This document shows, piece after piece, positions 28,676 through 64,000 of a stretch of DNA of 64,000 nucleotides (position 1 is the first letter of the stretch; each line of letters begins with the position of its first letter). The DNA is from Anaerolineaceae bacterium (GTDB lineage: Bacteria; Chloroflexota; Anaerolineae; Anaerolineales; Villigracilaceae). A program made the translations under genes and the position numbers. The notes under the pieces were generated by a model that saw only the letters and a program-made list of their open reading frames with translations, did no database searches and had not been told where the DNA came from. The stretch is from contig QZIJ01000036.1 of assembly GCA_003598975.1 (NCBI GenBank), positions 1 through 64,000 on the forward strand. Reading direction: 5' to 3'.

Positions 28676-28880
28676 AGAGTTAATCTACTGTCACAAATTT
28701 CAGGATTTATGCGGCATAAAATTTGCCAGAATTATCGTTTCTTATGCCAGCCACGCGCCGCGAGAGTTGCCATCTCGGCATCATCAAGACTCGTCGTATC
28801 GCAAGGCAAAGGAGGTAGGAGGAACGAGTCATGGCAACATAGTGGAGTTTGAGCCGCCTGCTCATTCTCAAGATGCGATT

Positions 28881-44216: not shown

Positions 44217-46376
44217 TCAGTATTTATGTCGCCATTCATAGCTTCCAGTAATTTTGAGCAACCGCATGCCGTTGAATACCACAATCAGGCTGGCCCCCAT
44301 ATCGGCAAAGACCGCCATCCAGAGCGTGGCTTTCCCGGCGAGGGCCAAAGCGAAGAATATCGCCTTGATGCCGATGGCCAGCGCGATGTTCTGTTGCAGC
44401 ACGTGGGAAGTGTCGCGGCTCAGTTTGATGAAATGCGGCACCTTGCGCAGATCGTCATCCATCAGTGCGACATCGGCGGTCTCGATGGCGGTATCGGTTC
44501 CGGCAGCGCCCATGGCAAAGCCTATGGAGGACTTGGCCAGCGCAGGTGCATCGTTGATGCCGTCGCCCACCATGCCGACTTGGCCGTAACGTCCCAGCAA
44601 CTCATCAATCACCGCCAGCTTGTCTTCCGGCAGCAGGTTGCCGCGCGCATCGTCTATGCCTACCTGGATGGCGATGGCGCTGGCCGTAGTCTGGTTATCG
44701 CCGGTCAACATCACCGATGCCACACCGAGAGCGTGAAGCTGGCGGATAGCCTCTGCGCTGTGCCCGCGCACCGTGTCGGCCACGCCGATAACGCACAGCG
44801 GTTCGGTTTCAGTCGCGAGTACCACCGCCGTCTTGCCTTCCTTTTCCAGACGGCCCAGTACTTCCTCGGCATGCAGGCCGCAGACGCCAAGGTCTTCATA
44901 CAGCCGGTGGTTGCCCACGTAGTAAAGTTGCCCTTCGACAACCGCCTTGGCACCGAGCCCGGTGATAGATTCGAACGAAGCGGCCTGCAACAGCGGGCGT
45001 AATGTTGCCTCGCCGCCCTGCCAGGCCGATACGATGGCTGCAGCAATCGGATGCTCGGAATGCGCATCTACGCAGGCGGCAAGTTGCAGCAACTGGTCTT
45101 TTGGCAGATCAACCAGCGGAACCACATCGGTCACGACAGGCTTGCCGTGCGTGAGCGTGCCGGTCTTGTCCAGCGCCACGACTTTTATCAGGCGGCCATT
45201 CTCCAGATGCACGCCGCCCTTGACCAGTATGCCCTGCCTCGCCGCAGCGGCCAGGCCGCTCACTACCGTGACGGGCGTGGAAATCACCAGCGCGCAGGGA
45301 CAAGCGATCACCAGCATGACCAGCGCCTTGTAGAACCACGGTTCAAACGCGGCACCGAATAGCAACGGCGGCACGGCTGCCACTAGGATTGCGAAGGCCA
45401 CCACGGCAGGGGTGTAGTAGCGCGCGAACTGGTCAACGAAGCGTTGCGTCGGCGCGCGCTGGCCTTGCGCTTCCTGCACCGTGTGGATGATGCGATCCAG
45501 CGTGGTGTTGCCCTTGTTTGCGGTGACACGGAATTCCAGCATGCCGCGTTCATTCAGTGTTCCCGCGAACACCGGGTCTCCCGCCGCCTTCACCACGGGC
45601 ATGCTTTCCCCGGTAATCGGCGCCTGATTTACCGAACTGCCGCCCGCCGTGACCACACCATCCAGCGGGATGCGTTCACCCGGTTTGACCCGCACGGTTT
45701 GGCCGACCTGCACATCGGCTGCGGCTATCTCGCGCCATTCGCCACTGACGAGTTGCACGGTGGCGATCTCAGGGGTCATGGCCATCAGCCCCTTGATTGC
45801 ATTCTTGGCACGTTCCAATGAAAGCGTTTCGATCAATTCGGCCAACGCGAACAGGAAAATCACCACCGCCGCTTCCGGCCATTCGCCGATGGCAAGTGCG
45901 CCGATGACGGCGACGCTCATCAGGAAATTCATGTTGAGGGTGAAATTCTTGAGCGCGATCCAGCCCTTTTTCAGGGTGCCGAGGCCGCCGGTGGCAATGG
46001 ACAGCAAGGCCAAGGCGATTACCGCAACCGATTGCTCGCTCGCCTCGCTCCAGGCAACGATTTCCGCAACGATGGCCGCAGTACCGGATACCGTCATCAG
46101 CGCCCAAGTCCGACGCGACACCACCGGAGTTTCCACTTCGCAACTGGAGCAAAAATCCGGCTGGCATTGCGGCTCGGGGGCTGCCTCCATGCCTATCTCA
46201 CGCAAGGCATCGCGGATGGATTGATCGTCGTCCAGCGTGTGCATCACCGTAAGACGACGGGTCATCAGGTTGAACGACAGTTCACAGATACCATGCACCG
46301 ATCCGAGACGTTTGCGGATCAGCGCCTCCTCGGTCGGGCAGTCCATGTTGCGGATGACTAATACCAACTGTTTCAT
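44217..46376 (-). CDS. cadA: P1B-type heavy-metal ATPase (CadA/ZntA-like)
   Basis: N-terminal HMA-like domain, IACPCALVISTPV, ALDKTGTLTHG, GDGINDAPALA. Confidence 0.95.
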   Translation of the reverse strand: MKQLVLVIRNMDCPTEEALIRKRLGSVHGICELSFNLMTRRLTVMHTLDDDQSIRDALREIGMEAAPEPQCQPDFCSSCEVETPVVSRRTWALMTVSGTAAIVAEIVAWSEASEQSVAVIALALLSIATGGLGTLKKGWIALKNFTLNMNFLMSVAVIGALAIGEWPEAAVVIFLFALAELIETLSLERAKNAIKGLMAMTPEIATVQLVSGEWREIAAADVQVGQTVRVKPGERIPLDGVVTAGGSSVNQAPITGESMPVVKAAGDPVFAGTLNERGMLEFRVTANKGNTTLDRIIHTVQEAQGQRAPTQRFVDQFARYYTPAVVAFAILVAAVPPLLFGAAFEPWFYKALVMLVIACPCALVISTPVTVVSGLAAAARQGILVKGGVHLENGRLIKVVALDKTGTLTHGKPVVTDVVPLVDLPKDQLLQLAACVDAHSEHPIAAAIVSAWQGGEATLRPLLQAASFESITGLGAKAVVEGQLYYVGNHRLYEDLGVCGLHAEEVLGRLEKEGKTAVVLATETEPLCVIGVADTVRGHSAEAIRQLHALGVASVMLTGDNQTTASAIAIQVGIDDARGNLLPEDKLAVIDELLGRYGQVGMVGDGINDAPALAKSSIGFAMGAAGTDTAIETADVALMDDDLRKVPHFIKLSRDTSHVLQQNIALAIGIKAIFFALALAGKATLWMAVFADMGASLIVVFNGMRLLKITGSYEWRHKY

Positions 46377-46393
46377 TGCCAGCTCTTCCGAGC

Positions 46394-47149
46394 CTACAGC
46401 GGTATGTTAAAAATCATTTTAATTGTCCAATTATTGGAATCTTTCATCCAGCCACGACCAATACCGATATTAATGTCGTGCCCGAAAATTTCGGTATCTG
46501 ATGTCAGATAAGTTTCTTGGCTCAGGCTTTTCATCTGGTTAGTTGCGCCAAAATCGGAATAATGCTCAATGTTAAGCCAGGTTTTGTCTGTTGCCCTGCG
46601 GCCAACTTTGAATGCGGGAGAAAAGCCAGGCGTATGAGAGTTGCCGGATAATGCGAAACCTAAAATTGGGTTTGCCGTGAGATTCCAATCATCAGATTTG
46701 TATCCAAGAATAGGGCGAACTTCAAAGTTCCAGCGTTGTTCGCTAATACGTCTTGTACTGGGGCCTAGTTCACCATTGATGCCCCAATAAAATCCATGTT
46801 CCCGGTTGTCGCCGATATATTTCAGGCGCACCCTTGGCAATTCAGCATACCAATTATTGTTAGCATCCCGGATGGCAGGAAGATAAAGCCCGCCTTCCAG
46901 ATTATTACTGAACCCATAGGCAAATTCTGGCGTCACCCTAAAATTATGGTGTGCCGGAATCTCTCCGTCGTAGGCAGGAGTTTTGACCCCGGAAGGAACA
47001 TAATTCATGTGAATATCGACGTTAAGCTCGCCCTTTTTGTTGATGGCCTCATCGTAAACTTGAATTTCATCGGCGGACGCAGCCATTACTTCCGTGCTTG
47101 CAACCATTGCCAGTACAAATAAACATAATTTAATCTTTTTATTCCGCAT
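46394..47149 (-). CDS. Hypothetical outer-membrane/periplasmic protein of the metal island
   Basis: 251 aa with signal peptide and beta-rich C-terminus. Confidence 0.6.
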   Translation of the reverse strand: MRNKKIKLCLFVLAMVASTEVMAASADEIQVYDEAINKKGELNVDIHMNYVPSGVKTPAYDGEIPAHHNFRVTPEFAYGFSNNLEGGLYLPAIRDANNNWYAELPRVRLKYIGDNREHGFYWGINGELGPSTRRISEQRWNFEVRPILGYKSDDWNLTANPILGFALSGNSHTPGFSPAFKVGRRATDKTWLNIEHYSDFGATNQMKSLSQETYLTSDTEIFGHDINIGIGRGWMKDSNNWTIKMIFNIPL

Positions 47150-47172
47150 AACAATCTCCCTAAAATGTAAAG

Positions 47173-47598
47173 CTACTCAAAACGTACCGGGAACGCAGTT
47201 CCGGCCTGATCTGTGCAAACGCCTGACGGTTTTGCGCCAGATTTCCAGATCAAGCGGCACGAGACTTCCTGCCCATCTGCTGATTTGGCAATCGTCTCGA
47301 CGGAATGAGTTACATGATCTGTGTCGAGTCCGGAGAAAATCCGGTCCCAATGCTTCGGATTGACGCCGTAATAGCGTTTGCGCAGTTCCGCCAAATTTCT
47401 CTGTCTCTCGACAGTAAACCCATGAGACTCATAACGGCGGTTCGGCGCCTCCAGCACGAGGCGGTTGTCCTTCCCACGGTCATGAACCAGTTCGCCGCCA
47501 ACAAACGGGGCTTCTCCTTCCTTGACCATTTGGTGAACATGGGCGGCGCAGCCGGTCAGCAGCAAAATGACCAGTATGCCAAAGTAAAATGTTTTCAT
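47173..47598 (-). CDS. Small lipoprotein of the metal island
   Basis: MKTFYFGILVILLLTGCAAHVHQ lipobox; start re-assigned to 47598. Confidence 0.65.
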   Translation of the reverse strand: MKTFYFGILVILLLTGCAAHVHQMVKEGEAPFVGGELVHDRGKDNRLVLEAPNRRYESHGFTVERQRNLAELRKRYYGVNPKHWDRIFSGLDTDHVTHSVETIAKSADGQEVSCRLIWKSGAKPSGVCTDQAGTAFPVRFE

Positions 47599-47699
47599 TT
47601 CATTTCCTTTCATTATTGGAGGCCAGTAGTGCGGCAGCGTAAATTTTGAACAGTATCGAGCGCACGCCGGACGGCGTCGAACCGTAAGCATCAGTTTTA

Positions 47700-48995
47700 T
47701 CAGTAATGATTGGCATGGTGTTCGTCCTCATCATTTCCTAACGGCCATAGTTGATGGGCATCCAGCAGCAAACGGTAGCGCGCCTCGTTGGCATCGAGTT
47801 GCGCGAGGGTTTCCGCCAACGAAGATTCAAGAGCGAAACGGTGTGCGGTGAGGCTGTCCGGCAGGCTGCTTTCGCCCAGGCTGTAAGCCTTGGCTACCAG
47901 TTCGGCATTGCTGCGGATGGCTAGTGCGGCCTCTTGCGCTAGTTGCCATGTGCTGTGGTTATTTACTGCCTGTGTATATGCTGCGTAGCTGTCGCCTTCC
48001 AGTCGGAGTTTGACAAAGGCTTCCTGATCGGCAGCGATAACGGCTTGCTGAATGGCGCCTTCCGCCGTCGCGCTGCGTTGTCCGAAAGAGAGCGGCATGC
48101 TGACATACACGCCGGTCACTTTTTCGCTGCCGCCCGATTCATTCGAATAACGCACCCCGACGGTAGGATCGGGCAACTGGTCGGCACGACTGCGCTGCGC
48201 CAGAAGTTGTTGTACGCGGCTCTGTTCCTGCACCATGCCGAGTTCGTGGTTGTGTTCGAGTATGCGCGACTTCCAGAATGCGAAATCATGCTCGACGGCT
48301 TGCGGTGTGGTGGGCGGTAGTTTGTCCGGCAACTGGATGGCGGGAAATTGCCGTCTCAAATCATTGTTCGCAAGTTGTGCGCGCAATTGGGCTTGATGCC
48401 ATGACACGCCAGCTTGTGCGGCGGCGGCTTGCGCCTGGTTCAACTCCAGCTTGGGCGCATCGCCAGCCTTGACGCGCTTCTCGGCCATTTGCGCTTGCTG
48501 CTTGAGAATATCCACCTGCTGTTGCCACAGATAGGTCTGCGCCTGCTCGCGCTGCCATGCGAACCACAGTTGCAGCAGGGTGCGCGCGGCTTCATGGCGC
48601 GCGTTGCCGAGTGCGTACTCGGCGCGCGCGACACTGGCTGCACCGATGTCTTCATCAATGCCTACCTTGTTGTACAGGCGCAACGGACGTTCCAGCGCGA
48701 CATCCCATTCCTTCAGGTTTTCTCCGGTGCTGGCGATATTGCGTTGCCCCGTGCCAGCGCGCAGGTTGAACTCGTAGCTGCCGCTGTTCCATTTGCGCTG
48801 ATTGGCGAGTTCCATTTTCAGCTCGCTGGCAGCATTCAGCGCAGGCAAGTAGCTGTTCAGCGCGCTTTCCATTTGCGCTGGTGACGGCAAGTCGGGGGGG
48901 CTGATTTCTGCGGCAAAGACAAGATTGCCGAACAAGGCCAGAACTAACAGGCTGCATCCTGCTTTCAATTTGTTGCTTGATTCGCTCCGTTTCAT
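47700..48995 (-). CDS. czcC: CzcC-like outer membrane efflux factor
   Basis: 431 aa TolC-family pattern with signal peptide. Confidence 0.9.
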   Translation of the reverse strand: MKRSESSNKLKAGCSLLVLALFGNLVFAAEISPPDLPSPAQMESALNSYLPALNAASELKMELANQRKWNSGSYEFNLRAGTGQRNIASTGENLKEWDVALERPLRLYNKVGIDEDIGAASVARAEYALGNARHEAARTLLQLWFAWQREQAQTYLWQQQVDILKQQAQMAEKRVKAGDAPKLELNQAQAAAAQAGVSWHQAQLRAQLANNDLRRQFPAIQLPDKLPPTTPQAVEHDFAFWKSRILEHNHELGMVQEQSRVQQLLAQRSRADQLPDPTVGVRYSNESGGSEKVTGVYVSMPLSFGQRSATAEGAIQQAVIAADQEAFVKLRLEGDSYAAYTQAVNNHSTWQLAQEAALAIRSNAELVAKAYSLGESSLPDSLTAHRFALESSLAETLAQLDANEARYRLLLDAHQLWPLGNDEDEHHANHY

Positions 48996-49315
48996 GCCAG
49001 CCTCCCGAATTCAATCACTGGCGTGATCCAATAACTCATTTCCGGATTGTTTTCTTCGCGCTTGAGGTATGCCACCAGCGCGTGCGCATCGTCCAGATTC
49101 ATTACGCTCTGGAGGGCGACGCGCTGCGAGCGTCCGCGTACCTGCTCGGTCTTGCTCGACAGGGTTTCTTGCCGGCTGCCACCCTCCATCTTGAGCATGG
49201 TGAAACCATGCACCCATTCTGGATGTTCCAGCAGGTGGTCCACCAGCCGTTCTTCCACTGCGTAGTGGCAGACCAGCGTCAAACAGCAATTCATTTCTTT
49301 CATTTGATTTTTCAT
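48992..49315 (-). CDS. DUF3240-type small protein
   Basis: 107 aa between czcA and czcC, overlaps both; CCLTLVCHYAVEERLVDHLLEHPEWVHGFTMLKMEGG. Confidence 0.7.
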   Translation of the reverse strand: MKNQMKEMNCCLTLVCHYAVEERLVDHLLEHPEWVHGFTMLKMEGGSRQETLSSKTEQVRGRSQRVALQSVMNLDDAHALVAYLKREENNPEMSYWITPVIEFGRLA

Positions 49316-52300
49316 TTGATCTCCTTGGCCCGTTCCAGGCCGAAACGGCGATAAAGAATGGGCAGCATGATGAGCGTCAATAACGTCGAGCTGATCAATC
49401 CGCCTATCACAACAATGGCGAGCGGTTTCTGGATTTCGGAACCTGGGCCGGTGGCAAACAACAGCGGCAACAGCCCGAAAGCGGTGATGCTGGCCGTCAT
49501 CAGCACCGGGCGCAGGCGTCGCTTCGCGCCTTCAAACACGACTTGTGCAATGCCGATGCCCTCGGCGTGTAGCTGGTTGAAGTAGGACACCATCACTACG
49601 CCGTTGAGCACCGCAATTCCCAGCAGCGCGATGAAGCCGACCGAGGCGGGAACGGACATATATTCGCCGCTCGCCCACAAAGCCAGTACGCCGCCGATCA
49701 AGGCGAACGGGATGTTGGTCAGCACCAAGACGGCTTGCCGCACCGAACCGAAAGTGGCGAACAGCAACATGAAAATCATGCCGAGCGCGACCGGAATGAC
49801 GATGGTGAGCCGTGCCGCCGCGCGTTGCTGGTTCTCGAATTCTCCGCCCCAGGTCAGGCGATAACCTTCCGGCAGTTTGATTTGCGCGGTGACGGCGGTC
49901 TTGGCTTCCTCGACGAAACCCACCAGATCGCGCTCGTGCACATTGCTTCGCACCACTACCATGCGTTGGCCGTTTTCCCGATCCACTTTGACCGGGCCAT
50001 CAACGCGTTCCAGCTTGGCGACCGCCGACAGCGGCACGCTTTGCCCGTTTGGTAAGGGCAGGGTGAGTGCGGCAAACAGTGCGGGGGATCGCTGGATGTC
50101 GCTTGCGCCACGCATAATCAGCGGAGTGCGTCGCCCATCTTCAATCACGATCCCGAGTTGCTGCCCTTCGATCTGGCTGCGCAGGATGTTGCCGATGTCG
50201 TCCACGTTCAACCCCAAACGACCGGCGGCGAGGCGGTCTATTGCCACGCGGTAATACTGCACACCGCTATTCTCCGTGGTGTACACATCCTGGCTGCCTT
50301 TGATCTCTTTCAGCACCTTGACCATTTGCTCGGCGGTTTCGTTGAGCTTGTTCAAGTCCGTACCGAAAATCTTGATCGCCACATCACCTCGCGCGCCGGT
50401 CAGCATTTCCGAAACGCGCATGGCAATGGGCTGGCTGAAGCTGTAAGAAATACCCGGAAGTTGCTCCAGCACCTCGCGCAGCTCGTTTATTAGTAATTCC
50501 TTGTTTGGCTTACGCCATTCTTTCATCGGCTTCAGCACCAGAAATGAGTCGGTCTGGTTAAGTCCCATCGGATCCAGGCCAATCTCATCGGAACCGGCGC
50601 GCGCCACGATATTTTGGACTTCCGGCACATGTTTCATGATGGCCTGTTGAATTTTCAAGTCGAGCGCCGCCGTTTGAACCAGGCTGACGGAGGGTAATTT
50701 TTCTATGCCGACGATGATGTCTCCCTCGTCCATTTCCGGCATGAAGGTCTTGCCGATCTGGGTGTACACCACGCCGGTGATGACCAGCATGACCAGCGCA
50801 CCGATGATAACCACGCGCTCTTTGTTCAAGGCGCGTTGCAGCAGCGGCGTGTAAATACCCATCGCCTTGCGCACCAACCACGGCTCCTGGTGGCTGACCC
50901 GCTTGAGCAGAAAGGAAGCGAGCATCGGCACTACGGTCAGCGACAGCAGCAGCGATGCGGCCAGCGCAAACACAATGGTCAATGCGACCGGAATGAATAA
51001 TTTGCCTTCCAAACCTTGCAAGGTGAGCAGCGGCAGAAACACGATGATGATGATGGCGACCCCGGCGGCAACGGGTGTGATGACTTCTTTCACCGCGCGG
51101 GAAACGACATGCAGATGCGACAGCTTGTTGATATTTTTGTCTTGCGCAAGATGCGACTCGATGTTTTCCACTACCACCACCGCCGCGTCCACCAACATGC
51201 CGATGGCGATGGCTAGCCCGCCCAGACTCATCAGGTTGGCGGACATGCCAAACTGCTGCATGAGAATGAAAGTGCACAGCATTGCGAGCGGCAAGGTGAT
51301 CGCCACCACAATGGCTCCGCGCAGATTGCCGAGGAACAGCACCAGCAGAATGATGACCAGCACGATGGCTTCGGTGATGGCTGTGGAGACGGTTCCGACC
51401 GCGCGTTCCACCAGGTTGCCGCGATCATAAAACACCTTGGTGGTGATGCCTTGCGGCAGCGTGGGCGTGAGTTCCTGCAATTTTGCTTTCACACTGGCGA
51501 CGATCTTTTGCGCATTTGCGCCGCGCAGACCGACCACTATTCCTTCCACTGCTTCGCCTTGCCCGTCCTTGGTCACGACACCAAGACGAGTCAGGCTGCC
51601 GATGCGCACTTGTGCGACATCGCTAACGCGAATCGGGCTTCCATCACGACTGGCGACGACGATGTTGCGCACATCTTGTAGATTGTTGATGTTGCCTTCG
51701 GTGCGCACCAGCAGCGCTTCATCACCATCGCTGAGACTTCCTGCACCATCGTTATGGTTGTTGGCTTGTATGGCTTGTTGCAGCATGGCAAAAGAAATGC
51801 CGTGCGCGGCGAGGGCGTGGTGATCAGGCACCACTTCAAAAGTGCGCACCAAACCGCCTATGGTATTGACCTCTGCCACGCCGGGCAGTGTGCGCAAGAC
51901 AGGCCGTATCACCCAATCCAGAATCGTGCGACGCTCCTGCAGGGAAAAGTTTTCGCCTTCCACGGTGAACATGAACATATCACCCAGCGGCGTGGTGATT
52001 GGCGCGAGTCCGCCGGTGACATTGCCTGGCAAGTCACGCTGCGCGTTATTCAGCCGTTCCGCGACTTGCTGGCGTGCCCAGTAGATGTCGGTGCCCTCAC
52101 TAAAATTGATGGTGATGTCGGCGATCGCATACTTTGAGGTGGAGCGCAGAATGTCTTGTCGAGGGATGCCGAGCATCTCCAGTTCGATAGGGGCGACGAT
52201 GCGCGCCTCGACTTCCTCCGGCGTCATGCCCGGAGCCTTCATGATGATCTTGACCTGCGTCGGGGAAACATCGGGAAACGCGTCAATCGGCAAGTCGCGG

Positions 52301-52392
52301 TACGACGCGATGCCCACACCGATCAGCAGCAGCGTTAACGCCGCTACCAGCATTCGTTGTGTCAGGGCGAATTCAACCAGTTTGGTCAACAT
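49312..52392 (-). CDS. czcA: CzcA-like heavy-metal RND transporter
   Basis: 1026 aa; HME-RND pattern, LPIDAFPDVSPTQVKI, TM IV GMLVDAAVVVVENIE. Confidence 0.95.
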   Translation of the reverse strand: MLTKLVEFALTQRMLVAALTLLLIGVGIASYRDLPIDAFPDVSPTQVKIIMKAPGMTPEEVEARIVAPIELEMLGIPRQDILRSTSKYAIADITINFSEGTDIYWARQQVAERLNNAQRDLPGNVTGGLAPITTPLGDMFMFTVEGENFSLQERRTILDWVIRPVLRTLPGVAEVNTIGGLVRTFEVVPDHHALAAHGISFAMLQQAIQANNHNDGAGSLSDGDEALLVRTEGNINNLQDVRNIVVASRDGSPIRVSDVAQVRIGSLTRLGVVTKDGQGEAVEGIVVGLRGANAQKIVASVKAKLQELTPTLPQGITTKVFYDRGNLVERAVGTVSTAITEAIVLVIILLVLFLGNLRGAIVVAITLPLAMLCTFILMQQFGMSANLMSLGGLAIAIGMLVDAAVVVVENIESHLAQDKNINKLSHLHVVSRAVKEVITPVAAGVAIIIIVFLPLLTLQGLEGKLFIPVALTIVFALAASLLLSLTVVPMLASFLLKRVSHQEPWLVRKAMGIYTPLLQRALNKERVVIIGALVMLVITGVVYTQIGKTFMPEMDEGDIIVGIEKLPSVSLVQTAALDLKIQQAIMKHVPEVQNIVARAGSDEIGLDPMGLNQTDSFLVLKPMKEWRKPNKELLINELREVLEQLPGISYSFSQPIAMRVSEMLTGARGDVAIKIFGTDLNKLNETAEQMVKVLKEIKGSQDVYTTENSGVQYYRVAIDRLAAGRLGLNVDDIGNILRSQIEGQQLGIVIEDGRRTPLIMRGASDIQRSPALFAALTLPLPNGQSVPLSAVAKLERVDGPVKVDRENGQRMVVVRSNVHERDLVGFVEEAKTAVTAQIKLPEGYRLTWGGEFENQQRAAARLTIVIPVALGMIFMLLFATFGSVRQAVLVLTNIPFALIGGVLALWASGEYMSVPASVGFIALLGIAVLNGVVMVSYFNQLHAEGIGIAQVVFEGAKRRLRPVLMTASITAFGLLPLLFATGPGSEIQKPLAIVVIGGLISSTLLTLIMLPILYRRFGLERAKEIK

Positions 52393-53507
52393 TATTCACC
52401 CCCGCCGATGCCCATCAGGCTGGATTTGAGCGTGGAGACGCCGCGTACCGCGATTTTCTCATCGCCCTTGAGTTCGCCGCTGATCACGCTGTTTTGTGCG
52501 CCCTCATTCAGCACGTTGATGGTTTGCGCGCGAAAACCTTCGGCGGTTGCCACAAACACCACTGTTCTGCCCGCGATGCGCGAAATCGCGCTGTTGGGAA
52601 TTTCCCACTGCGCACCGCCGTTCGCGCTGATACTGATACTGGCTTCGACAAACTGACCGGGGCGCAGATTTTCTGTGCCTTGCTGGATCATGGCACGCAA
52701 CAAAATAGTCTGATTGGTGCCGGACAGGCTGCGCCCAATCGCGGTGAGCCTGCCGCTTGCCGCATAAGCGGGGACAGTAACCGCCGCGCCAATCTTCAGA
52801 TCGCGGGTGTAGGCCAGCGGAGCCTGAATCTCCAGGGTGAGCGGATCGAGCTTGGCAATCGTGAACATCGGCACGGCAGCGTCGAGACGTTGCCCCGTGC
52901 TGGCAGACTTTTCCAGCACCGCGCCATCAATCGGTGCGGTCAGGGTAAGCAGGCTGCTTACGCTGTTGCTGGATTGCAGTTGTGCAATCGCAGCCTCGGA
53001 CATTCCGGCAAGACGCAACATCTGCTTGCGCTCGGACAATGCCGCCCCAGCTTCGAGCGCCGCCCCCTTGGTGGCGAGGAAGCGGCTCTCTGCGATGATG
53101 CCATCTTTCCATAACGCTTCATCGCGGGCGAGATTCTGCTGAGCGAGCTGGCTTTGCACACCGGCCTGCAACAAACCACGCTGCGCTTCCACCAATGCCG
53201 GGCTTTGCAGCCGCGCTATCGGCTGGCCTTTCCTGACGCTGTCGCCCACGCCAACCAGGGTTTGTTCGACCATGGCCGGAAACGGGGTGCTGATGACAAA
53301 CAATTGGTTGTGAGGAATGACCACCTGCGCGGGCAGTCCGGATACTACACCGGATTGTTTGGCGGGCAGCGCAGCAGTGACGACGCCGAGGGCTTGGACT
53401 TGTTTGGCGTTAAGCGCCAGTTCATCGGATGGGCCTGATGTATCAGATGCTAGGGCATTTTGCGAAAAGCACAAGGCCGGCAGCAAATAGAAAAATATCG
53501 CTTTCAT
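52392..53507 (-). CDS. czcB: CzcB-like membrane fusion protein
   Basis: Signal peptide; biotinyl-lipoyl-like hairpin; overlaps czcA start. Confidence 0.92.
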   Translation of the reverse strand: MKAIFFYLLPALCFSQNALASDTSGPSDELALNAKQVQALGVVTAALPAKQSGVVSGLPAQVVIPHNQLFVISTPFPAMVEQTLVGVGDSVRKGQPIARLQSPALVEAQRGLLQAGVQSQLAQQNLARDEALWKDGIIAESRFLATKGAALEAGAALSERKQMLRLAGMSEAAIAQLQSSNSVSSLLTLTAPIDGAVLEKSASTGQRLDAAVPMFTIAKLDPLTLEIQAPLAYTRDLKIGAAVTVPAYAASGRLTAIGRSLSGTNQTILLRAMIQQGTENLRPGQFVEASISISANGGAQWEIPNSAISRIAGRTVVFVATAEGFRAQTINVLNEGAQNSVISGELKGDEKIAVRGVSTLKSSLMGIGGGE

Positions 53508-53693
53508 ATGGAACTCCAGATGCTGCGCAGGGCAGCACCGCAAATTGAAATCGGACTGAAACTGACAAGAACGGCATGGCGGCCTGCAATGCGATCACAG
53601 CCCTCTTGAGGCAATCAACAAGTTGCTTTTCAGAGGAACCATACTTTGCTCGCGCAAAGCATGGCCGACAGCATTACAAATGCCAGAGGTTTT

Positions 53694-54396: not shown

Positions 54397-57300
54397 TCAG
54401 GCGACTTCGGCTTCCGCTTCCATCGCACCGGCGTTACCCTTGTCGAGATCGAGCGCTGCATTGATCTCGCGTTGGCGCACCAGCAACTGCGTGAGCCTTT
54501 CTTCCTTTTCGAAAGGCTTGCCCAGCTCCGAGAGTATGTCGGCCTGACGCTTTTCTGTCCGGGCCATCTCATTGCAGGCTTCTGCCAGTCGTCCTTCCAG
54601 GCTGTTGGCCACGTTCTCGATCACCCTGACCATCCCTTGCGGGCTGTCTGAATGGTGAGCCATGTAGCCACGTCGCCCTTTCAGGATGAAGCAAGGGCCA
54701 TCATCGGCTGTTGTCGGGATGGTCACTTCGAGATCGAAGCCAGCAAACTGCCCAACCGTCACTTCTCCCGGCGAGGATGTCCAGTTCCCGAACTTCCGGG
54801 TTCTGGCCTTGGCCTCTATGTAGCACCGGTGAAGCACCTCTCCAGCCGCTGACCGTTCGATGTAGCATTTTCCGTCAATCACCATGCTGAAGCGGTTACC
54901 CCGCACATCCGCGCGATCCGCAATGTCGGCTTCTACCGATCCGACCCGCTCCCGGATCTTCTCGATTCTGCCGGGCAGGGTCGCCGACTCCCGCTGGTTC
55001 GCCCATCGCTGATTGTCCCATTGGGATTTGAGCAATGAAAGCTTTGCGACTTCGGCATCTATACCCGCCTTTTCCATCACCAGCGGATTACCCGATGCCA
55101 ACGCTTTCACCTCGGCATAGGACAGCGCAGCCAACTCCACGTCCTCCGCACTGCGCATTCCAGTATCCCCGCGCATAACCTGGGCAATGAAGCGCGCCTT
55201 GGTTTCGAGGGTCTGCCAGATGTAGGCATCGAACGAGGCCTCTGTGACATAGCGGATGATCCGCACCTCTTCGTTCAGGTTTCCCTGCCGAATAATGCGT
55301 CCCTCCCGCTGCTCGACATCCGATGGCCGCCAAGGAGCGTCCAGATGGTGCAACGCCGCCAGACGGGTCTGGATGTTGGTGCCGACGCCCATCTTCAAGG
55401 TGCTGCCGAGGAGGATGCGAATCCGCCCTTCCCTCACCGACTTGAACAACTCTGCCTTGGCGGCATCGCTGTCGTAATCGTGAATGAAGGCAATCTCCGT
55501 TCCCGGAACACCCATTTCGACGAGCTTTGCGCGAATGACGTGATAGACACTGAACCGTCCATCGTCAGTCGGTGTGCTGAGGTCGCAAAACACGGCCTGA
55601 GTCCCACGGAACGCTGCGGTTTCCCGCCATATCCCGAAGACCTTGTCCGCACACTGGCTGACCTTGCAGCCCTGTGCTTCCGGGCTTGAAGGATCAACCA
55701 GCCGCATATCCAACGCAGCCTTGCGGCCATCGTTGGTCACCGCCAGCATATTGTCTTCGCTGGGTGATACTTCGCCGTTGCGTATTGCTTCCGCGCGGGC
55801 GACCAATGTTGCAACAAACGCCTTCAACTCCGGCGTCGGCTTGGCCGTCACGGTTTCTAGATGATGCTTGGGCACCGGAAGTTTCAGCATGTCCGCCGTG
55901 CGTATGTCGGCCACTTCCCGGAACATGGTCATCAGCTCCGGCAAATTGACGAACCGCGCGAACCGCGTGTTCATGCGATAGCCGCCACCATCCGGCGACA
56001 GCTCCAGGGCAGTTACAGATTCCCCGAAGTTGCCCGCCCACGTATCAAACTGCGACACATGATTGGAGCGCAGCGTCATCGGCTGCAAGTAGCGTTGCAT
56101 GGTCCACATCTCGGCCATCGAGTTAGAAACCGGTGTCCCTGTTGCGAACACCACACCCGAACGACCGCCCTGCTTTTCCATCACATGGCGCGTCTTCACG
56201 AACATATCGAAGGCGCGCTCCGAGTTGGAGTTTGGCAGACCTGCAACCCGCGTCATTTTGGTGAAGCGGTACAGGTTTTTGAAGTAGTGCGCCTCGTCTA
56301 TGAAGAGATAATCAATGCCCAGCTCCTCGAACGTGAGCATGTCATCCTTCTTCGATTTGGCCGACATTTTCTCCAGCCTCGCGAGCCATATCTTCTTGGC
56401 CCGCTCCAACTCCTTGACGATGCGATTCCCCCGCTTGCCTGATTTCGAGGCCATTAGTGCGCACTCGATTTCGTAGACTCGCGCTTCGATAAACGACTCC
56501 ATTGCTTCGTCGCTCATCTTGATCCTCTCGAAAGAGGCGTGGGTAATCAGCACCGCATCCCAATCGCCGGTGGCGATCCGTGACAGCAGCGTCCGGCGTT
56601 TGTCACCGACCAGATCGTCCTTGCTGGCCATCAGGATGTTGGCACCCGGATAAGCCCGCAAAAACTCCGCCGCAAACTGCTCAAGCATGTGGTTGGGCAC
56701 CACGTAGCACGGCTTGCTGGCCATGCCGAGACGCCGTAACTCCATTCCGCCGCAGATCATCGTCAGTGTCTTACCGGCACCGACCACGTGTGCCAACAGG
56801 GTGTTTACCCCGCCGGACACGATTCGCCAGATGCCGTCCTTCTGATGGCGATGGAGGCTGTACACCTCGGAAAATCCCGGCAAAGAGAGCCATGAACCAT
56901 CGAACTCTCTCAGCCTGACAGCATTGAACTGGTCGTTGTACATCCTGACCAGCCGCTCGCACCGCTCGGAATCGGCGAACACCCAGGAACGGAATTTCTC
57001 CTTGAGTGCCTGCTGCTTTTCCCTTGCGGCAATGGTTTCTTCGGTGTTCACGTGATACCGGTCAGTGACCGGGTCACGATCCCTGATCGTCGGAACCATC
57101 TGGTTGAGCGTAACGACAAACAACTCGCCCGCCGTGATGCGCCCCGTGCCGTAGGTTTGGGTCGAGGCTACCGACTTCTCCCCCTGCCAAGGCACATCAA
57201 CATTCCATGCCCCGGCTTCGGAACCGAACTCCACCGTGCAACCATCGCATTCCAGAAGATGATCGAGGAACGCTGCGTAGTCACGCGCCGGGATCCAGGT

Positions 57301-59385
57301 CGAGCCTATCCGTGCATCTATTTCACCCGGCCCCAAATCAAGCGGGATGACCGCCTTCAGCGCCTCGACGTTACGGACAAACTCTTCTCCCGCCGCTTCC
57401 GCCATCTCCAGCTTGATACGCACGTTGCCGGAGAGATAAGCATCGGAGGTTTCCCACTGCGATGATTCCGGGTTCAGGAAAATCAAACCTCGACCTGCCA
57501 TATCCGGAATGAATTGCGCCCTGTCCTGCCCGAGCAATGATTCCATCAACGCAACATCAATGCGCCCGCGCTCGTGCAGGGATACCAGCAGCGCCTCTTC
57601 GGCAGACGCACACCGCTCAACCTTGCGAACGACCCCTACCGTTCTGCGGTAGAAAATGTCCGCCTTCTCCGCCGTGCCACTTTCCGGATCAAAATTCTCC
57701 AGAGACAGCAGCAGCGGCAGATCGGGATCGCCCTTGAATGCCAGCTTGTTGGCTTTGGCATGGAGATAGCCATGCTTCGCCACAAAGCTGTCGTAGGCCA
57801 CATTGAGCGCCAGCCGGTAACTACCCAACCGGCTATCATCCGCAGTTGCATGCTGAACGTGGAGCAGCTTTCGCGCGGCATTGCGGATCGCCATCAAACC
57901 GTGAATCCGTCTGGCTACCGTTGCCGACACCGAACTGCCTATCACCAGCAACTCCTGCCCTTCCGAAACGGCCAGTCGGCCATCTGGAGTCAGGCAGTAC
58001 GCCCCCGGTTTGACGAACTCCGGTGCCGCGACGCGAATGTCCCGCCGCGTATTCACAGACAGCTCGGCAGCACGGGGCGTGTAAACACCCTCGGGCAACC
58101 TGGCTATCCGCTCTACCAGCGCCACCTTCACATCGCCGTCGAAGACCGCTGCATTGGCGAGACCAAAGCCATTTGACTTCTGCCCCATGCGACCGATCAG
58201 CATGTCCGGGTTCTGGACATACCAGCTCGACACGAACAAGCGCCGGTAACCCTCGCACATTTCCTGCGGAGCCTCCATGACACCAATCCAATCGTCGGAT
58301 GCCTTCTCGCCTTCCTCCGGCTTTTGCAGGAAGACAACATCGGTCGTGACTTCAGTATTGGCGAGGTGTGAAAACGTCCCTGACGGCAGACGAATCGCAC
58401 CGACGAATTTGGCGTTTGCGCTGATATAACGCCGCGCCTGATCGTCCCACTTGTCGAGCGTACCGGCGGAAGTAATGAACGCCACCAACCCGCCCGGACG
58501 CGTTACCTCCAGAGCACGACCAAAGAAATAATCGTGGATGAGGAAGTTTGCATACGGTAAATTCCGGTCATCAGGAACCTGATAGTTTCCGAAAGGAACA
58601 TTCGAGATCACCAGATCGAACCAGTCCTTGGGCAGTCTGGCTTTCTCGAAACCGACCGCCATCGTCCTGACCCCATGATGCCCGTAGAGACGCGACAGAA
58701 TGCGGGACGACACGCGATCAATCTCGATTGCCGTTACTTCCGAAGCTTCAGCCAAATCCTTCGGCATAGCTCCGATGAAATAACCGACTCCCGCAGAAGG
58801 CTCCAAGATGCGACCGCCCCGGAAACCCATGCGGCGAACGGCATCCCATATCGCCTCAATCACGAATACTTCCGTGAAGTGGGCATTGACGACACTGCCC
58901 TTGGCACTCTCGTAATCCTCGCCCAGAATTTCCGGCATGGACTCGGCTCTCGCCTTCCACGTCGGCTCGTCCTGATCGGGATTGAACGCCTTCGGTATTC
59001 CGCCCCATCCGGTGTAGCAGTTCAGAACATCGCGCTCTTCATCCGTCGGCGACCGATTGTCCGCCTCAAGACGATGCAGCAACGAAACGGCTGCCATGTT
59101 CGCATCGAACTTGGTGACATCGCCTCGCAGCTTCGAGTGCAACATCTGATCAAGGCTAGGCCAAAGAGTCCGAGGTGGCTTGCTTGCGTGGATCGTTGTC
59201 GGTACAACTATCGACAAATCCTGCGCAGGCTCTTCATTCACCGGAGCACTGACCTGCGCCTGATCTACCAGCGGAAAAGCGATGATCTCCGCCGTCTGAG
59301 TGAAGCATGGAACAACATGAAGTGAATCGTCCGGGGCCAAGCCCGGAAGCCACATCGTGGCCTCGGCAAGTTTCTTGAGTTTCAC
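54397..59385 (-). CDS. Giant N6-adenine methylase-like/SNF2 helicase fusion (DarB-like antirestriction/plasmid protein)
   Basis: ILEPSAGVGYFIGAMP and DLVISNVPFGNY (MTase); HVVGAGKTLTMICGG, LFIDEAHYFKN, EQREGRIIRQGN (helicase). Start re-assigned to GTG 59385. Confidence 0.88.
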   Translation of the reverse strand: MKLKKLAEATMWLPGLAPDDSLHVVPCFTQTAEIIAFPLVDQAQVSAPVNEEPAQDLSIVVPTTIHASKPPRTLWPSLDQMLHSKLRGDVTKFDANMAAVSLLHRLEADNRSPTDEERDVLNCYTGWGGIPKAFNPDQDEPTWKARAESMPEILGEDYESAKGSVVNAHFTEVFVIEAIWDAVRRMGFRGGRILEPSAGVGYFIGAMPKDLAEASEVTAIEIDRVSSRILSRLYGHHGVRTMAVGFEKARLPKDWFDLVISNVPFGNYQVPDDRNLPYANFLIHDYFFGRALEVTRPGGLVAFITSAGTLDKWDDQARRYISANAKFVGAIRLPSGTFSHLANTEVTTDVVFLQKPEEGEKASDDWIGVMEAPQEMCEGYRRLFVSSWYVQNPDMLIGRMGQKSNGFGLANAAVFDGDVKVALVERIARLPEGVYTPRAAELSVNTRRDIRVAAPEFVKPGAYCLTPDGRLAVSEGQELLVIGSSVSATVARRIHGLMAIRNAARKLLHVQHATADDSRLGSYRLALNVAYDSFVAKHGYLHAKANKLAFKGDPDLPLLLSLENFDPESGTAEKADIFYRRTVGVVRKVERCASAEEALLVSLHERGRIDVALMESLLGQDRAQFIPDMAGRGLIFLNPESSQWETSDAYLSGNVRIKLEMAEAAGEEFVRNVEALKAVIPLDLGPGEIDARIGSTWIPARDYAAFLDHLLECDGCTVEFGSEAGAWNVDVPWQGEKSVASTQTYGTGRITAGELFVVTLNQMVPTIRDRDPVTDRYHVNTEETIAAREKQQALKEKFRSWVFADSERCERLVRMYNDQFNAVRLREFDGSWLSLPGFSEVYSLHRHQKDGIWRIVSGGVNTLLAHVVGAGKTLTMICGGMELRRLGMASKPCYVVPNHMLEQFAAEFLRAYPGANILMASKDDLVGDKRRTLLSRIATGDWDAVLITHASFERIKMSDEAMESFIEARVYEIECALMASKSGKRGNRIVKELERAKKIWLARLEKMSAKSKKDDMLTFEELGIDYLFIDEAHYFKNLYRFTKMTRVAGLPNSNSERAFDMFVKTRHVMEKQGGRSGVVFATGTPVSNSMAEMWTMQRYLQPMTLRSNHVSQFDTWAGNFGESVTALELSPDGGGYRMNTRFARFVNLPELMTMFREVADIRTADMLKLPVPKHHLETVTAKPTPELKAFVATLVARAEAIRNGEVSPSEDNMLAVTNDGRKAALDMRLVDPSSPEAQGCKVSQCADKVFGIWRETAAFRGTQAVFCDLSTPTDDGRFSVYHVIRAKLVEMGVPGTEIAFIHDYDSDAAKAELFKSVREGRIRILLGSTLKMGVGTNIQTRLAALHHLDAPWRPSDVEQREGRIIRQGNLNEEVRIIRYVTEASFDAYIWQTLETKARFIAQVMRGDTGMRSAEDVELAALSYAEVKALASGNPLVMEKAGIDAEVAKLSLLKSQWDNQRWANQRESATLPGRIEKIRERVGSVEADIADRADVRGNRFSMVIDGKCYIERSAAGEVLHRCYIEAKARTRKFGNWTSSPGEVTVGQFAGFDLEVTIPTTADDGPCFILKGRRGYMAHHSDSPQGMVRVIENVANSLEGRLAEACNEMARTEKRQADILSELGKPFEKEERLTQLLVRQREINAALDLDKGNAGAMEAEAEVA

Positions 59386-59440
59386 GTGTATCTCCTGGAA
59401 AAACCGGAGACACGTGTCCCTGCCGGGGTGTGTCCCCGGA
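59383..59440 (-). ncRNA. Two-hairpin leader RNA of the methylase-helicase gene
   Basis: CCGGGG-ACACA-CCCCGG, then CACGTGT-N20-ACACGTG with SD AGGAG in the loop side and the GTG start in the 3' arm. Confidence 0.75.
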
Positions 59441-59479
59441 TGGGTTATGGCCTGTTGGCCCAAATGATTTACGACTGCT

Positions 59480-59926: not shown

Positions 59927-60721
59927 TCATCCGCGCTTGCGACTACGCTTGCGCTTCGGAAAACCAAATCGGGCCCATGTATCCGGATCGACGGGAAGCG
60001 GTGTCGTCCGGGCATTTTTGAGATTGACGAAAACGCCGTGGTAGGCGATCTGTCCGTAGCGGAAAAGCTCCCACAGGAGATTCAAGGCATAAAGCGAAAC
60101 GCCCCTGTTGACGAAGAGCGATTGTTTTTCGAGCGCATCCGCCAGACTGCATGACGGTGTGTTGTCATCGGCTTCCTGCGTCTCGTCCCCGATTTCGGGG
60201 AGCAGGTCTATTGCATGCGGCAGGCGCTCCACACTTGGCTTGTCCCAGCGAGATGGCACTTGGCCAAGAATGACCTGACCATCATGAAGCCGATTGCCAA
60301 GATCAAGCCAATAGCCGCCACCGCCACGGGATACTGCGTCAAGGATTGCCTTTCTGGCCATGCGATTGTCCACGCAGCCGATCACAAGATCAGTGCGCAG
60401 ATTTTCGTTGCCAGTCAGGCGTCGCGTCTCAGCTTGCCAAGCGGTGCCCATCGCCATGTTGATGCGATTGACGAGCACTGTTGCCTTCGGAAGTCCCTCG
60501 TCAGACGGATAGAACATCTGCCGCCCGACATTGGCTTCCGAAACCTGGTCGCTGTCCATCACCGTGACTTCCAGGCCGCCGGGGTGCCCCAGCGCGATCA
60601 TGGACGTATGAAGCTGGGCCAATCCCGTCAACATCTGAGAACCGGTGCCGCCTGCGCCGATCACCGCGACATGAACTTCCCGCGTGAGGAGTTCAGGAGA
60701 GAGTAGATGTATAGCCATCAT
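59927..60721 (-). CDS. PRTRC system ThiF-family (E1-like) protein
   Basis: Start MMAIHLLSPELL; HVAVIGAGGTGSQMLTGLAQLH, EVTVMDSDQVSEANVGRQMF E1-like motifs. Confidence 0.9.
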   Translation of the reverse strand: MMAIHLLSPELLTREVHVAVIGAGGTGSQMLTGLAQLHTSMIALGHPGGLEVTVMDSDQVSEANVGRQMFYPSDEGLPKATVLVNRINMAMGTAWQAETRRLTGNENLRTDLVIGCVDNRMARKAILDAVSRGGGGYWLDLGNRLHDGQVILGQVPSRWDKPSVERLPHAIDLLPEIGDETQEADDNTPSCSLADALEKQSLFVNRGVSLYALNLLWELFRYGQIAYHGVFVNLKNARTTPLPVDPDTWARFGFPKRKRSRKRG

Positions 60722-61337
60722 CCCCTCCCTTCGTATCCTCCGCACCGAATGCCAGCGGCAGGAACAGCCCGTTAGCGCATAGGCGGAAAGCTGTAGAACA
60801 ACAAGCCTTATCGCAGTTACCGACAACACCGGCGATCTTGAACTCACCTCTGTCATCACTATCATCGTCTGGCGAGAAGAATGCCGATAGACGACCGTGG
60901 GAGTGAAGATCAACCACCAGATGCTCACCTTCATCGAGAGTCGGTCGCGTATAGCGAACGTGACTGCACCCGGTGGAAAGTTCTTCCAGGCGTTCCAATC
61001 GCATGTCGCCGGTTCGCTCGTTCCACACTATCCAGCCCACGCATTCATCCGGACACCGCTCTGCGGCGTAACGGAAAAACTCGAAGACCAGACGGCGAGG
61101 AATCTTGCCAAACGCAAGCGACAACTCACGAGTAACGACACCGTAAGGCATGGGCACATTCCGCTGGCGAACCAGCGGCGTGCGCAAATACATCCATGGA
61201 CGACGCGCCTCCAGCCACAACCCGTCGCCGGTCACCAGAAATCGGTGGCCGTTGCCGGTCATGGGCTCGAAAGCACTGTACCGAGGCACCAAAGTTACTG
61301 GCGCCGATTGTTGCAAAGCAATATCGCGCGTATCCAT
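60693..61337 (-). CDS. PRTRC system protein A (JAB/JAMM-like)
   Basis: LVVDLHSHGRLSAFFSPDDDSDD fits HxHx7SxxD; upstream of ThiF-like gene. Confidence 0.85.
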   Translation of the reverse strand: MDTRDIALQQSAPVTLVPRYSAFEPMTGNGHRFLVTGDGLWLEARRPWMYLRTPLVRQRNVPMPYGVVTRELSLAFGKIPRRLVFEFFRYAAERCPDECVGWIVWNERTGDMRLERLEELSTGCSHVRYTRPTLDEGEHLVVDLHSHGRLSAFFSPDDDSDDRGEFKIAGVVGNCDKACCSTAFRLCANGLFLPLAFGAEDTKGGDDGYTSTLS

Positions 61338-62075
61338 TCACGCCTCCGCTTCCAGGACGGCTGCCTCGAAGGTTTCGATCAGCGTCTTGCCCGTTGGAAC
61401 GAGCGTGCGCGTAGGAAACCGGGCAAACCTGCCATCAAGCAAGTCCCGCCACAGGGCAAAGGGGCCAGCCCGGTAACGGGTCAATCCCTTGGCCGTATGG
61501 ATGTTCGGATGTGTGAAGTAGGAACGGAAAAACGCTTCCTCCCATGCCTCGCTCTGATACGCCATATCACCTTTCGGCAACCGGGCATTCCCAACACAGA
61601 TGTTCCCTGTGTTCCAGACGTTGAAGAACGGCGCGACAAACAAGCTCGTATCTGCATCGGGACGTTGCCGCCCCTTGTAGGCAAATATCTTCCACGTCTT
61701 GTTGGTCACAATGAATATCAACCCCGGACACGGAGCACGTCCGGTACGCGCACCCAACTCCTTGCAGTCGAACCAGACCTGCCTGGGTTGTGGCTTGCTG
61801 AACCAGACGAAAAACCCCGGCCCTTCGGCGAGCACATGGGGCGGCTTGAGAGCGGGCCGCACCATCGCCTTGGGATCGAGAATCCTCATCAGCGACATGA
61901 GTCCCGATTTGCTTGCCGGGACACCCGCCTGAATGATGGGCTTGTCTGCGTCATCCGTTGATACATCGTGAACCGAGGCGAAAGCCGGATTGCGGCTTGC
62001 ATCCTGATACACGAGGATGGCGCTGCTCAGCCGGTATGACTGGCTGCTTGAAAAAGTGCTGACACTGATCGTCAT
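61338..62075 (-). CDS. PRTRC system protein B (prokaryotic E2-like)
   Basis: MTISVSTFSSSQSYRLSSAILVYQD...FFNVWNTGNICVGN; start re-assigned to 62075. Confidence 0.83.
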   Translation of the reverse strand: MTISVSTFSSSQSYRLSSAILVYQDASRNPAFASVHDVSTDDADKPIIQAGVPASKSGLMSLMRILDPKAMVRPALKPPHVLAEGPGFFVWFSKPQPRQVWFDCKELGARTGRAPCPGLIFIVTNKTWKIFAYKGRQRPDADTSLFVAPFFNVWNTGNICVGNARLPKGDMAYQSEAWEEAFFRSYFTHPNIHTAKGLTRYRAGPFALWRDLLDGRFARFPTRTLVPTGKTLIETFEAAVLEAEA

Positions 62076-62140
62076 GGCGACCTCCAAAAAAATGCAGAGG
62101 TGCGCCACCCCGTGCGGGCGTGACGACACCCCCGCAAGGT
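62073..62140 (-). ncRNA. Two-hairpin leader RNA of PRTRC_B
   Basis: CCTTGCGGG...CCCGCACGG, then TGGCG(c)ACCTC-loop-GAGGTCGCCATG with SD and ATG in the 3' arm. Confidence 0.72.
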
Positions 62141-62149
62141 TGAAAAAAA

Positions 62150-63226
62150 TCAGACTGGCTCGGCAATAAAACCAATCAGTCTATCCAGGGCCGAAAGCAA
62201 TTGCAGGCCCAGCTCCGTTCTACGTTGCCATGCGGCAAACCCCTCCTGATCGAGAGGTACTGCCTGCGCGCCGAAAAGGTCGGTGTAGCCATCGCTGACA
62301 CTGTTCGCATACTCGATAAAATCATCGAACACGCGCTCCAGCGGGTCATCAGCCCCCCATCTCAGGTAAGCCCCGAAATAGACGCATTCGACATCCATGC
62401 CTTCGAGACCCGGAAGCTCACCACCATCGGCATCCAGCCGCCCAACATCGAGCAGCGCTGACGCCAGTGGCGCCAACTCACCTCCGGCAGCCGCTATCTC
62501 CCCCAAGGCCGAGTCATCCAGCACTCGCTTGGGATCTATCACCCAGTTCGGGAAATGGCCGTCAAACCAATCGGGCGAAATGGCCTCCTCCATATCGGCG
62601 GCGGTCATGCCCATCGCGGTCATCTCCTCGACCCAGTCATCCTGCTCGCTGCTGCCCTGCCAGTGAATGTATTCACAGACTTGCCGGGCTGTTGCCGGGG
62701 TGTAAGCGAAGAGCGTTTTCCCGGAGGAACGTTGCAGCCAGTAAAGCACCGTCTCGCCCAGACCGGGACTTGTCGCCTCGATGTGTGTGATTCGCTCCTT
62801 CAATGACAGCCACACCACCTGCTCGGACTGTAGCGCCCAATACCACCGGGTCTCTTCATCCTGTTCGGTGGAGAACTGCAATCCATAGCTGATCGCTTCC
62901 GCTCCCGTGGCCACCAGAGCACCGAATGCAAAGTGCTCCAACTGACCAGCATGCCGGTTAATCCAGCGGGCGAAAGCCTGCTGCACCAGCGACTGCGGCA
63001 TACCCGACGCATCGCCCTGAATCTCCCCCGCATCCAGCCAGCGAAGCGCCAGCATGAACCAACGACGAAGATCAAGACACGGGTCGAGGCTACCGGTTAA
63101 CTCTTTCCCGAACCTTGGCAGGCTCAGAGGATCAGTGGCTGGACGAAAGCGACCGGCAGGCAACGTTCGCCTGGCGATACTTTCTCCTGGGATCGCAGCA
63201 CCAAGCGTTGCAAGGCTTGTACGCAT
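62150..63226 (-). CDS. PRTRC system protein F
   Basis: 358 aa; position between PRTRC C and B genes, overall family resemblance. Confidence 0.75.
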   Translation of the reverse strand: MRTSLATLGAAIPGESIARRTLPAGRFRPATDPLSLPRFGKELTGSLDPCLDLRRWFMLALRWLDAGEIQGDASGMPQSLVQQAFARWINRHAGQLEHFAFGALVATGAEAISYGLQFSTEQDEETRWYWALQSEQVVWLSLKERITHIEATSPGLGETVLYWLQRSSGKTLFAYTPATARQVCEYIHWQGSSEQDDWVEEMTAMGMTAADMEEAISPDWFDGHFPNWVIDPKRVLDDSALGEIAAAGGELAPLASALLDVGRLDADGGELPGLEGMDVECVYFGAYLRWGADDPLERVFDDFIEYANSVSDGYTDLFGAQAVPLDQEGFAAWQRRTELGLQLLSALDRLIGFIAEPV

Positions 63227-63336
63227 AATTTCATCTCCTCGTGATCGAAGGCGGGAACCCCTTTCGGGATCCCCTCTTCAAGTTGCGAGAAGTCGCCATC
63301 GGCACCGGCTTGTAGCCGTTCCTTGAGCGACACCAT
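63124..63336 (-). CDS. Possible small protein between PRTRC C and F
   Basis: 70 aa ORF with ATG and upstream GGAAGGGA; overlaps PRTRC_F start by about 100 bp. Confidence 0.4.
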   Translation of the reverse strand: MVSLKERLQAGADGDFSQLEEGIPKGVPAFDHEEMKLCVQALQRLVLRSQEKVSPGERCLPVAFVQPLIL

Positions 63337-63339
63337 GGC

Positions 63340-63717
63340 CTATCCCTTCCGAACGACCAGACGGATCAGGCGATCAATTCCCCGGAAGAAACGCCGGATG
63401 GCGTCCTCCAGATAATTGTCTGCCGCAATCCCCGCCGGGCGCAGTTCGATATAGGTCAATCCATCTTCACGCCGACAAGCGACAACGCCTAAGCGGCTCC
63501 GAGATGCCGCGCCCTTGGTTCCGACTGCGCGCCGGAAGGTATAGACGAGACGATCACCTTTCTGCTCAGGCCCCTCGATGGAGGCCGTCGTGATTTCCGG
63601 GTAGGTGGCGGAATAAACATCCCTCACCTGCTCCGGGCTCAGCTCCGTGCCAGGGTCGGGTAATGCGATGCCGTTGTAAGCGAATGAACGCAGCAGCTTC
63701 TGTACGGTAATGGTCAT
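63340..63717 (-). CDS. PRTRC system protein C (prokaryotic ubiquitin-like) with C-terminal extension
   Basis: MTITVQKLLRSFAYNGIALPDPGTELSPEQVRDVYSATYPEITTASIEGPEQKGDRLVYTFRRAVGTKG...VVRKG; start re-assigned to 63717. Confidence 0.87.
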   Translation of the reverse strand: MTITVQKLLRSFAYNGIALPDPGTELSPEQVRDVYSATYPEITTASIEGPEQKGDRLVYTFRRAVGTKGAASRSRLGVVACRREDGLTYIELRPAGIAADNYLEDAIRRFFRGIDRLIRLVVRKG

Positions 63718-63727
63718 GGCCGCCTCC

Positions 63728-64000
63728 TCATGCGAAAAGGTTTTCTTCGGCCTGACTACCCGCCGCTTCCGGCTCGCCGCTTTGCTCATCGTCGCCCTCA
63801 TCGTCAGCCACTGCTGGCTCGATTACTTGGGCACCTTTGCTGATCGCCTTTTCCGCCTTCTTGTTGGCGTCCTTTTTGGCCGCTTCGAGAATGGATCGGG
63901 TCGCTTCGAGCTGTTCGGCAAGTGACTTGTGCTCTTCGGCATAGCTTTTGAGCAATCCGACGAACTGCTCGTCGAGTTCCTCAGCCGTGCCGGTGAGCAC
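63728..64000 (-). CDS. PRTRC system protein E (5' part may lie outside window)
   Basis: Coiled-coil-like acidic ORF directly upstream of PRTRC_C, runs to the window edge. Confidence 0.65.
   Translation of the reverse strand: MLTGTAEELDEQFVGLLKSYAEEHKSLAEQLEATRSILEAAKKDANKKAEKAISKGAQVIEPAVADDEGDDEQSGEPEAAGSQAEENLFA

Follow-up and report, generated by a model that had tools for sequence, protein, structure and literature searches.

PRTRC cassettes were described by Iyer et al. 2006 (PMC1779556) as operon type 6d, for which ubiquitin-like (Ubl), ubiquitin-activating (E1), ubiquitin-conjugating (E2) and JAB activities were predicted together with a helical protein. A full-text literature search for PRTRC found no paper whose title or abstract indicates a study of the function of the system; in papers on Rhizobium, the matches mostly represent the plasmid name pRtrCIAT. 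Here we have analyzed a DNA stretch of 64,000 nucleotides (the window), representing bases 1-64000 of the 78,480-base contig QZIJ01000036.1, in which positions 59927-64000 are a canonical PRTRC cassette. The genes and their order are those of type 6d, including a JAB protein with an N-terminal DUF2016 and standalone E1, E2 and Ubl proteins. However, the Ubl protein PRTRC_C of Iyer et al. is small with a Gly at its C-terminus, whereas that of the window is C-terminally extended. The core idea of the earlier note on this DNA, i.e., a set of Ubl, E1, E2 and JAB proteins, is correct but had already been published in 2006. What is new here, as read from the sequences in a comparison of about 85 cassettes, is the association of a Ubl tail with JAB, the split or fused state of a partner domain, and the conservation of residues. 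We suggest that PRTRC cassettes encode a minimal Ubl conjugation pathway, borne by mobile elements and working through a single Gly, in which the JAB protein would mature the Ubl, and we give this reading a probability of about 0.66.

Bil resembles PRTRC in having Ubl, E1, E2 and JAB proteins encoded by separate genes, and its JAB protein BilC trims BilA, exposing the C-terminal Gly (PMC11354881). The two systems differ in that BilA has two Ubl domains, BilD is a two-domain E1 with a Cys domain and BilB has a CEHH motif, while PRTRC has a single-domain E1, an N-x4-G-x2-C motif and, in addition, ParB, E and F. Bub shares an E1-type adenylating domain, with BubCD among the PDB matches of the PRTRC ThiF profile, but belongs to a different operon. 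Type II CBASS (cyclic-oligonucleotide-based antiphage signaling system) likewise combines E1-E2 chemistry with a JAB protein, Cap3, that reverses or processes it. However, its Cap2 is an E1-E2 fusion that conjugates the cGAS-like enzyme itself, and there is no separate Ubl protein. UFM1 has a single terminal Gly and is made as a precursor, though it is trimmed by cysteine proteases and not by JAB. The likeness of the UFM1-UBA5-UFC1 pathway to PRTRC is a likeness of working only. UBA5 is a small, non-canonical E1 with its Cys within the adenylation domain (PMC11354881).

The Ubl domain of the window's PRTRC_C lies on the minus strand at 63511..63717 (TIGR03738, 101.5 bits against a cut-off of 45.95; PF14454, Prok_Ub). 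It starts at 63717 with a strong Shine-Dalgarno sequence upstream, and comprises residues 1-69, which end in VGTKG. Beyond Gly69 the same frame continues for 56 residues and a stop codon (63340..63510, minus strand), so that PRTRC_C has 125 aa in all. The earlier note overlooked this extension, as well as a type II CBASS within the same window. In many other cassettes the stop codon directly follows the Ubl Gly; the window and the loci closely related to it have tails of 56-59 residues, and unrelated tails occur on plasmids of Rhodanobacter, Xanthomonas and Hydrogenophaga. For the more diverged pairs of the window group, the ratio of nonsynonymous to synonymous substitution rates is about 0.05 up to Gly69 versus about 0.3-0.5 beyond it, a shift in selection that would be as expected of a propeptide which is removable yet translated. 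Frameshift artefacts were considered as the origin of the tails and rejected, since tails are also present in finished plasmids (loci L035, L124 and L127) and some purifying selection is seen in the window group.

Tails were found only where JAB is present. Among the 85 cassettes in which both states are readable, 38 of the 64 with JAB are tailed, compared with none of the 21 without it (Fisher 3e-7), and after dereplication at 90% the numbers are 32/49 and 0/16 (Fisher 3e-6). In 20 new loci, analyzed with frozen models and with the prediction recorded beforehand, all seven tailed cassettes had JAB and both of the readable JAB-less ones were untailed. Four loci (L075, L080, L081 and L087) were excluded from the JAB counts because their contig ends cut between B and ThiF. 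L074 was excluded since it looks frameshifted; L112 also looks frameshifted but was kept as tailed, its partner domain matching L110-L113. That JAB had merely escaped annotation in the JAB-less cassettes was rejected, since a hidden Markov model search at maximum sensitivity and a scan for the JAMM motif found none there. Because related sequences are not independent and the changes on the tree are few, the association, although consistent, is not decisive alone. An independent-pairs sign test on tail and JAB lacked power.

In cassettes of another phylum, from genomes that share their class or phylum with the bin to which the contig was assigned, the tail is a conserved domain of about 80 residues, often ending PLGF, which matched no family in Pfam. 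Within the first sample of loci, 16 cassettes, all with JAB, encode this domain as a fusion to the Ubl, and 7 cassettes with JAB and 8 of 8 without it have it as a separate open reading frame, located at the stop codon of the Ubl or shortly thereafter (Fisher 8e-4). The JAB-less L085 and L092 have JAB-bearing sisters, L084 and L086, in which the gene is already split, and the JAB-less L139/L143 relate likewise to L142. The simplest reading of these sequences is that JAB would be needed as long as a precursor conceals the Ubl Gly, and would become dispensable once the gene encodes the mature end. A wider proposal, which we think rather unlikely as a whole, is that the tag is fused to a small helical partner (or to a tandem Ubl) and released by its own JAB, that JAB is lost only where the parts are split, that the partner takes part in the pathway as an adaptor or E3-like factor, and that the conjugate affects how large plasmids are partitioned or replicated. 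Tandem Ubl domains, two per protein and both with the end GEKG, are encoded at L099:3980-4843 and at L102:7612-8433, an arrangement that resembles a polyubiquitin precursor. At L104:3370-3711, PRTRC_C has a tail of repeated (R)TTKG units beyond its normal end.

Among 35 diverse PRTRC_C domains (19-95% identical to that of the window), no column other than that of the terminal Gly is invariant. Lys precedes this Gly in nearly all of them, and 74 of the 80 loci read end in -KG. Since the Gly is invariant with Lys before it, the tag would act through -KG and not -GG. The usual end of sulfur carriers is -GG, and ThiS/MoaD proteins are marked by a C-terminal Gly-Gly with no E2, whereas PRTRC has -KG ends and an E2-like gene. 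We therefore consider it very improbable that PRTRC_C is a sulfur carrier of the ThiS/MoaD type, with ThiF forming its thiocarboxylate while the E2-like protein and JAB serve sulfur transfer. The invariant Asn and Cys of the E2-like PRTRC_B, a ThiF without a rhodanese domain, and the finding of no metabolic enzyme gene common to all the cassettes examined also argue against such a carrier, even though ThiF is of the right family, some plasmids have genes of the PAPS-reductase family close to the cassette, and JAB genes are also found in sulfur-carrier operons (Iyer et al. 2006, PMC1779556). In an AlphaFold2 model of PRTRC_C the Ubl part is plausible, with a Foldseek result that is not significant, and the Ubl profile gave only weak PB1 and kinase matches in the PDB.

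The genes named in the earlier note were all recovered in place on the minus strand with NCBIfam and Pfam, and the motifs it quoted, i.e., the JAMM motif of PRTRC_A, the candidate Cys of PRTRC_B and the ThiF motif, are present. The conservation of active-site residues was assessed in 53-73 homologues per protein and repeated on sets of 24-35 sequences. The E1-like ThiF (264 aa, 59927..60721, minus strand, likely ATG at 60721; TIGR03736, 340.6 bits against a cut-off of 144.75; Pfam ThiF) has an ATP site composed of GxGGxG, D56, N64, R67, K79 and D118, and also Cys191; in 65-68 homologues, the ATP-site residues and one Cys are invariant or nearly so. The structures nearest to the ThiF profile in the PDB are UBA5, at the top, and UBA6, with ThiF, MoeB, BubCD and Cap2 lower. 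Like UBA5, PRTRC ThiF would need its Cys inside the adenylation domain, and Cys191 is the putative thioester-forming catalytic Cys. In PRTRC_A (60693..61337, minus strand; TIGR03735, 223.8 bits against 101.8; PF09436 and PF14464, DUF2016 and Prok-JAB), a predicted JAB/JAMM metalloprotease, the JAMM residues are E98, H145, H147, S155 and D158, and this Glu/His/His/Ser/Asp set is invariant or nearly so in its relatives.

PRTRC_B (61338..62129, minus strand; TIGR03737, 240.2 bits against 131.45; PF14460, Prok-E2_D) has a candidate E2 Cys178 and Asn170, both invariant in 73 homologues, with Gly175 between them. The spacing of this N-x4-G-x2-C motif is identical to that of yeast E2s (HPN-x4-G-x2-C), and hhalign of PRTRC_B against the yeast sequences gave P = 4.9e-5 and a probability of 68%, with the Cys and Asn aligned. 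Because of the spacing and the alignment, the invariant Asn appears to correspond in position to the catalytic Asn of E2s. A downstream E2 His, 'absolutely conserved' in Iyer et al. 2006, is not fixed in the wider set here. Profile searches of PRTRC_B and PRTRC_A against the PDB gave no matches.

In the pathway that we propose, PRTRC_C would be the tag, acting through its single C-terminal Gly, and the window and its nearest relatives would produce it as a tailed precursor. PRTRC_A would cut PRTRC_C after Gly69 and expose the reactive end. ThiF would then adenylate this Gly and take the tag onto its invariant Cys, from which PRTRC_B would accept it on Cys178, with Asn170 in the catalytic position, and pass it to a target. 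Residue conservation, together with the association of tail and JAB, gives good support to reading these genes as a Ubl/E1/E2/JAB set. Thus, this part of the working conjugation/deconjugation pathway claimed in the earlier note is well supported, while the conjugation itself, with cleavage, thioester transfer and a covalent target, is what we infer from it. The rule that links tail and JAB makes precursor trimming by PRTRC_A directly testable, and the conservation points to the key residues. If true, the processing of precursors by JAB, as in Bil, would extend to another bacterial lineage in which split genes provide natural controls.

Several observations weigh against this pathway. There are few independent changes on the tree, about 8 for the tail and 6 for JAB, and a rough branch-length test of their link gave P of about 0.05-0.07. 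Ala replaces the terminal Gly in L149 and L151, two near-identical, tailed and JAB-bearing loci from the later set. The His preceding the E2 Asn is missing in PRTRC_B, and the E2 fold was not confirmed by AlphaFold2, the model from a 12-sequence alignment having a predicted local distance difference test score of 43, at which a PDB search is meaningless. One cassette, L028, has no ThiF nearby. Furthermore, 26 cassettes with JAB are untailed, so JAB probably has a further role there, e.g., taking the tag off targets.

The few changes on the tree and the two Gly-to-Ala loci also favor an alternative, namely that the Ubl serves as a structural subunit and is not conjugated, that its tail is just another domain fused to it, that JAB works only on something else, and that the link between tail and JAB reflects shared ancestry. 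YukD is a precedent for a Ubl without conjugation (Iyer et al. 2006, PMC1779556), and the partner domain is conserved in JAB-less loci as well, so that it has a role of its own. However, conservation within the Ubl is highest at the terminal Gly, the catalytic residues of E1 and E2 are retained even where JAB has been lost, and the stop codon comes right after the Gly in all JAB-less lineages. We regard this alternative as quite unlikely and favor a conjugated Ubl.

A search of 72,556 plasmid records recovered PRTRC_B in 300, Pseudomonas megaplasmids among them, and all 60 records among the matches listed are at least 95 kb. This occurrence on large plasmids beside ParB suggests a role in the biology of the element, and PRTRC, as a Ubl pathway, would be intimately connected with plasmids and with integrative and conjugative elements. 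The further proposal of the earlier note, that the target is a plasmid maintenance or transfer protein, is speculative and comes from gene order only; a cassette protein such as ParB as the target is a guess, with the odds clearly against it. Alternatively, the same chemistry could serve anti-phage or stress defence instead of plasmid maintenance or transfer, since the tested relatives of this architecture (CBASS Cap2/Cap3 and Bil) act in phage defence (PMC10097602, PMC13373217) and further defence-like genes, among them a type II CBASS, are present on the same element. Against this, the models of PADLOC-DB 2.0.0 gave no match for A, B, C and F and only weak E1-E2 matches for ThiF, and ParB is part of the cassette, which occurs on large plasmids, although position proves neither side. 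We consider a defence role rather unlikely.

All seven proteins of the cassette (A, B, C, E, F, ThiF and ParB) pass their own NCBIfam cut-offs. The order ParB-E-C-F-B-A-ThiF runs on the minus strand from 59927 past 64000 and is the same on EbN1 plasmid 1 and pBVIE02. The alpha-helical protein PRTRC_F (62150..63226, minus strand; TIGR03742, 135.5 bits against 58.4; PF14456, alpha-hel2) diverges fast and was detected in 29 loci. The 3' part of PRTRC_E occupies 63728..64000 (minus strand; TIGR03741, 93 bits), its gene running to about contig base 64228, and after it, outside the window, comes PRTRC ParB at about 64231-65937 of the contig (TIGR03734, 716 bits). A PRTRC_D-like ParM/actin-like protein (37145-38119, plus strand; PF17989) sits 22 kb from the cassette, and its TIGR03739 score of 174.2 bits is below the cut-off of 214.8. 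PAPS-reductase-family genes recur close to PRTRC cassettes on plasmids L024, L031 and L032.

The contig carries the F-type type IV secretion genes TraG/TraH/TraC/TraV/TraE and a RepA-like initiator, while searches of it for a TraI_2-type relaxase and a tyrosine integrase found neither. Thus, the conjugative element of the earlier note is borne out as regards its transfer genes, but it is incomplete on this contig. The homoserine dehydrogenase of the contig (hom, L002:15331-16662) is 97% identical to that from a Gallionella metagenome-assembled genome, compared with only 31-33% identity to its counterparts in the genus and family of the bin. It is therefore almost certain that the contig was mis-binned, and its true host is almost surely a Gallionellaceae-like betaproteobacterium.

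The type II CBASS operon is a second ubiquitin-like system within the window (16172-20573, plus strand) and consists of a patatin-like phospholipase, a cGAS-like enzyme, the E1-E2 fusion Cap2 and the JAB protein Cap3. Other defence-like genes are present at 25598-35855, namely an nSTAND NTPase, an SMC-like AAA protein adjoining a metallophosphoesterase, and an OLD-like ATPase that has a TOPRIM domain. Immediately downstream of the PRTRC genes (54397-59463, minus strand) is a 1688-aa methyltransferase-like and SNF2-type helicase protein with weak similarity to DISARM DrmD. Finally, the region 44217-53543 encodes a heavy-metal P-type ATPase and a CusABC/AcrB-type efflux set.

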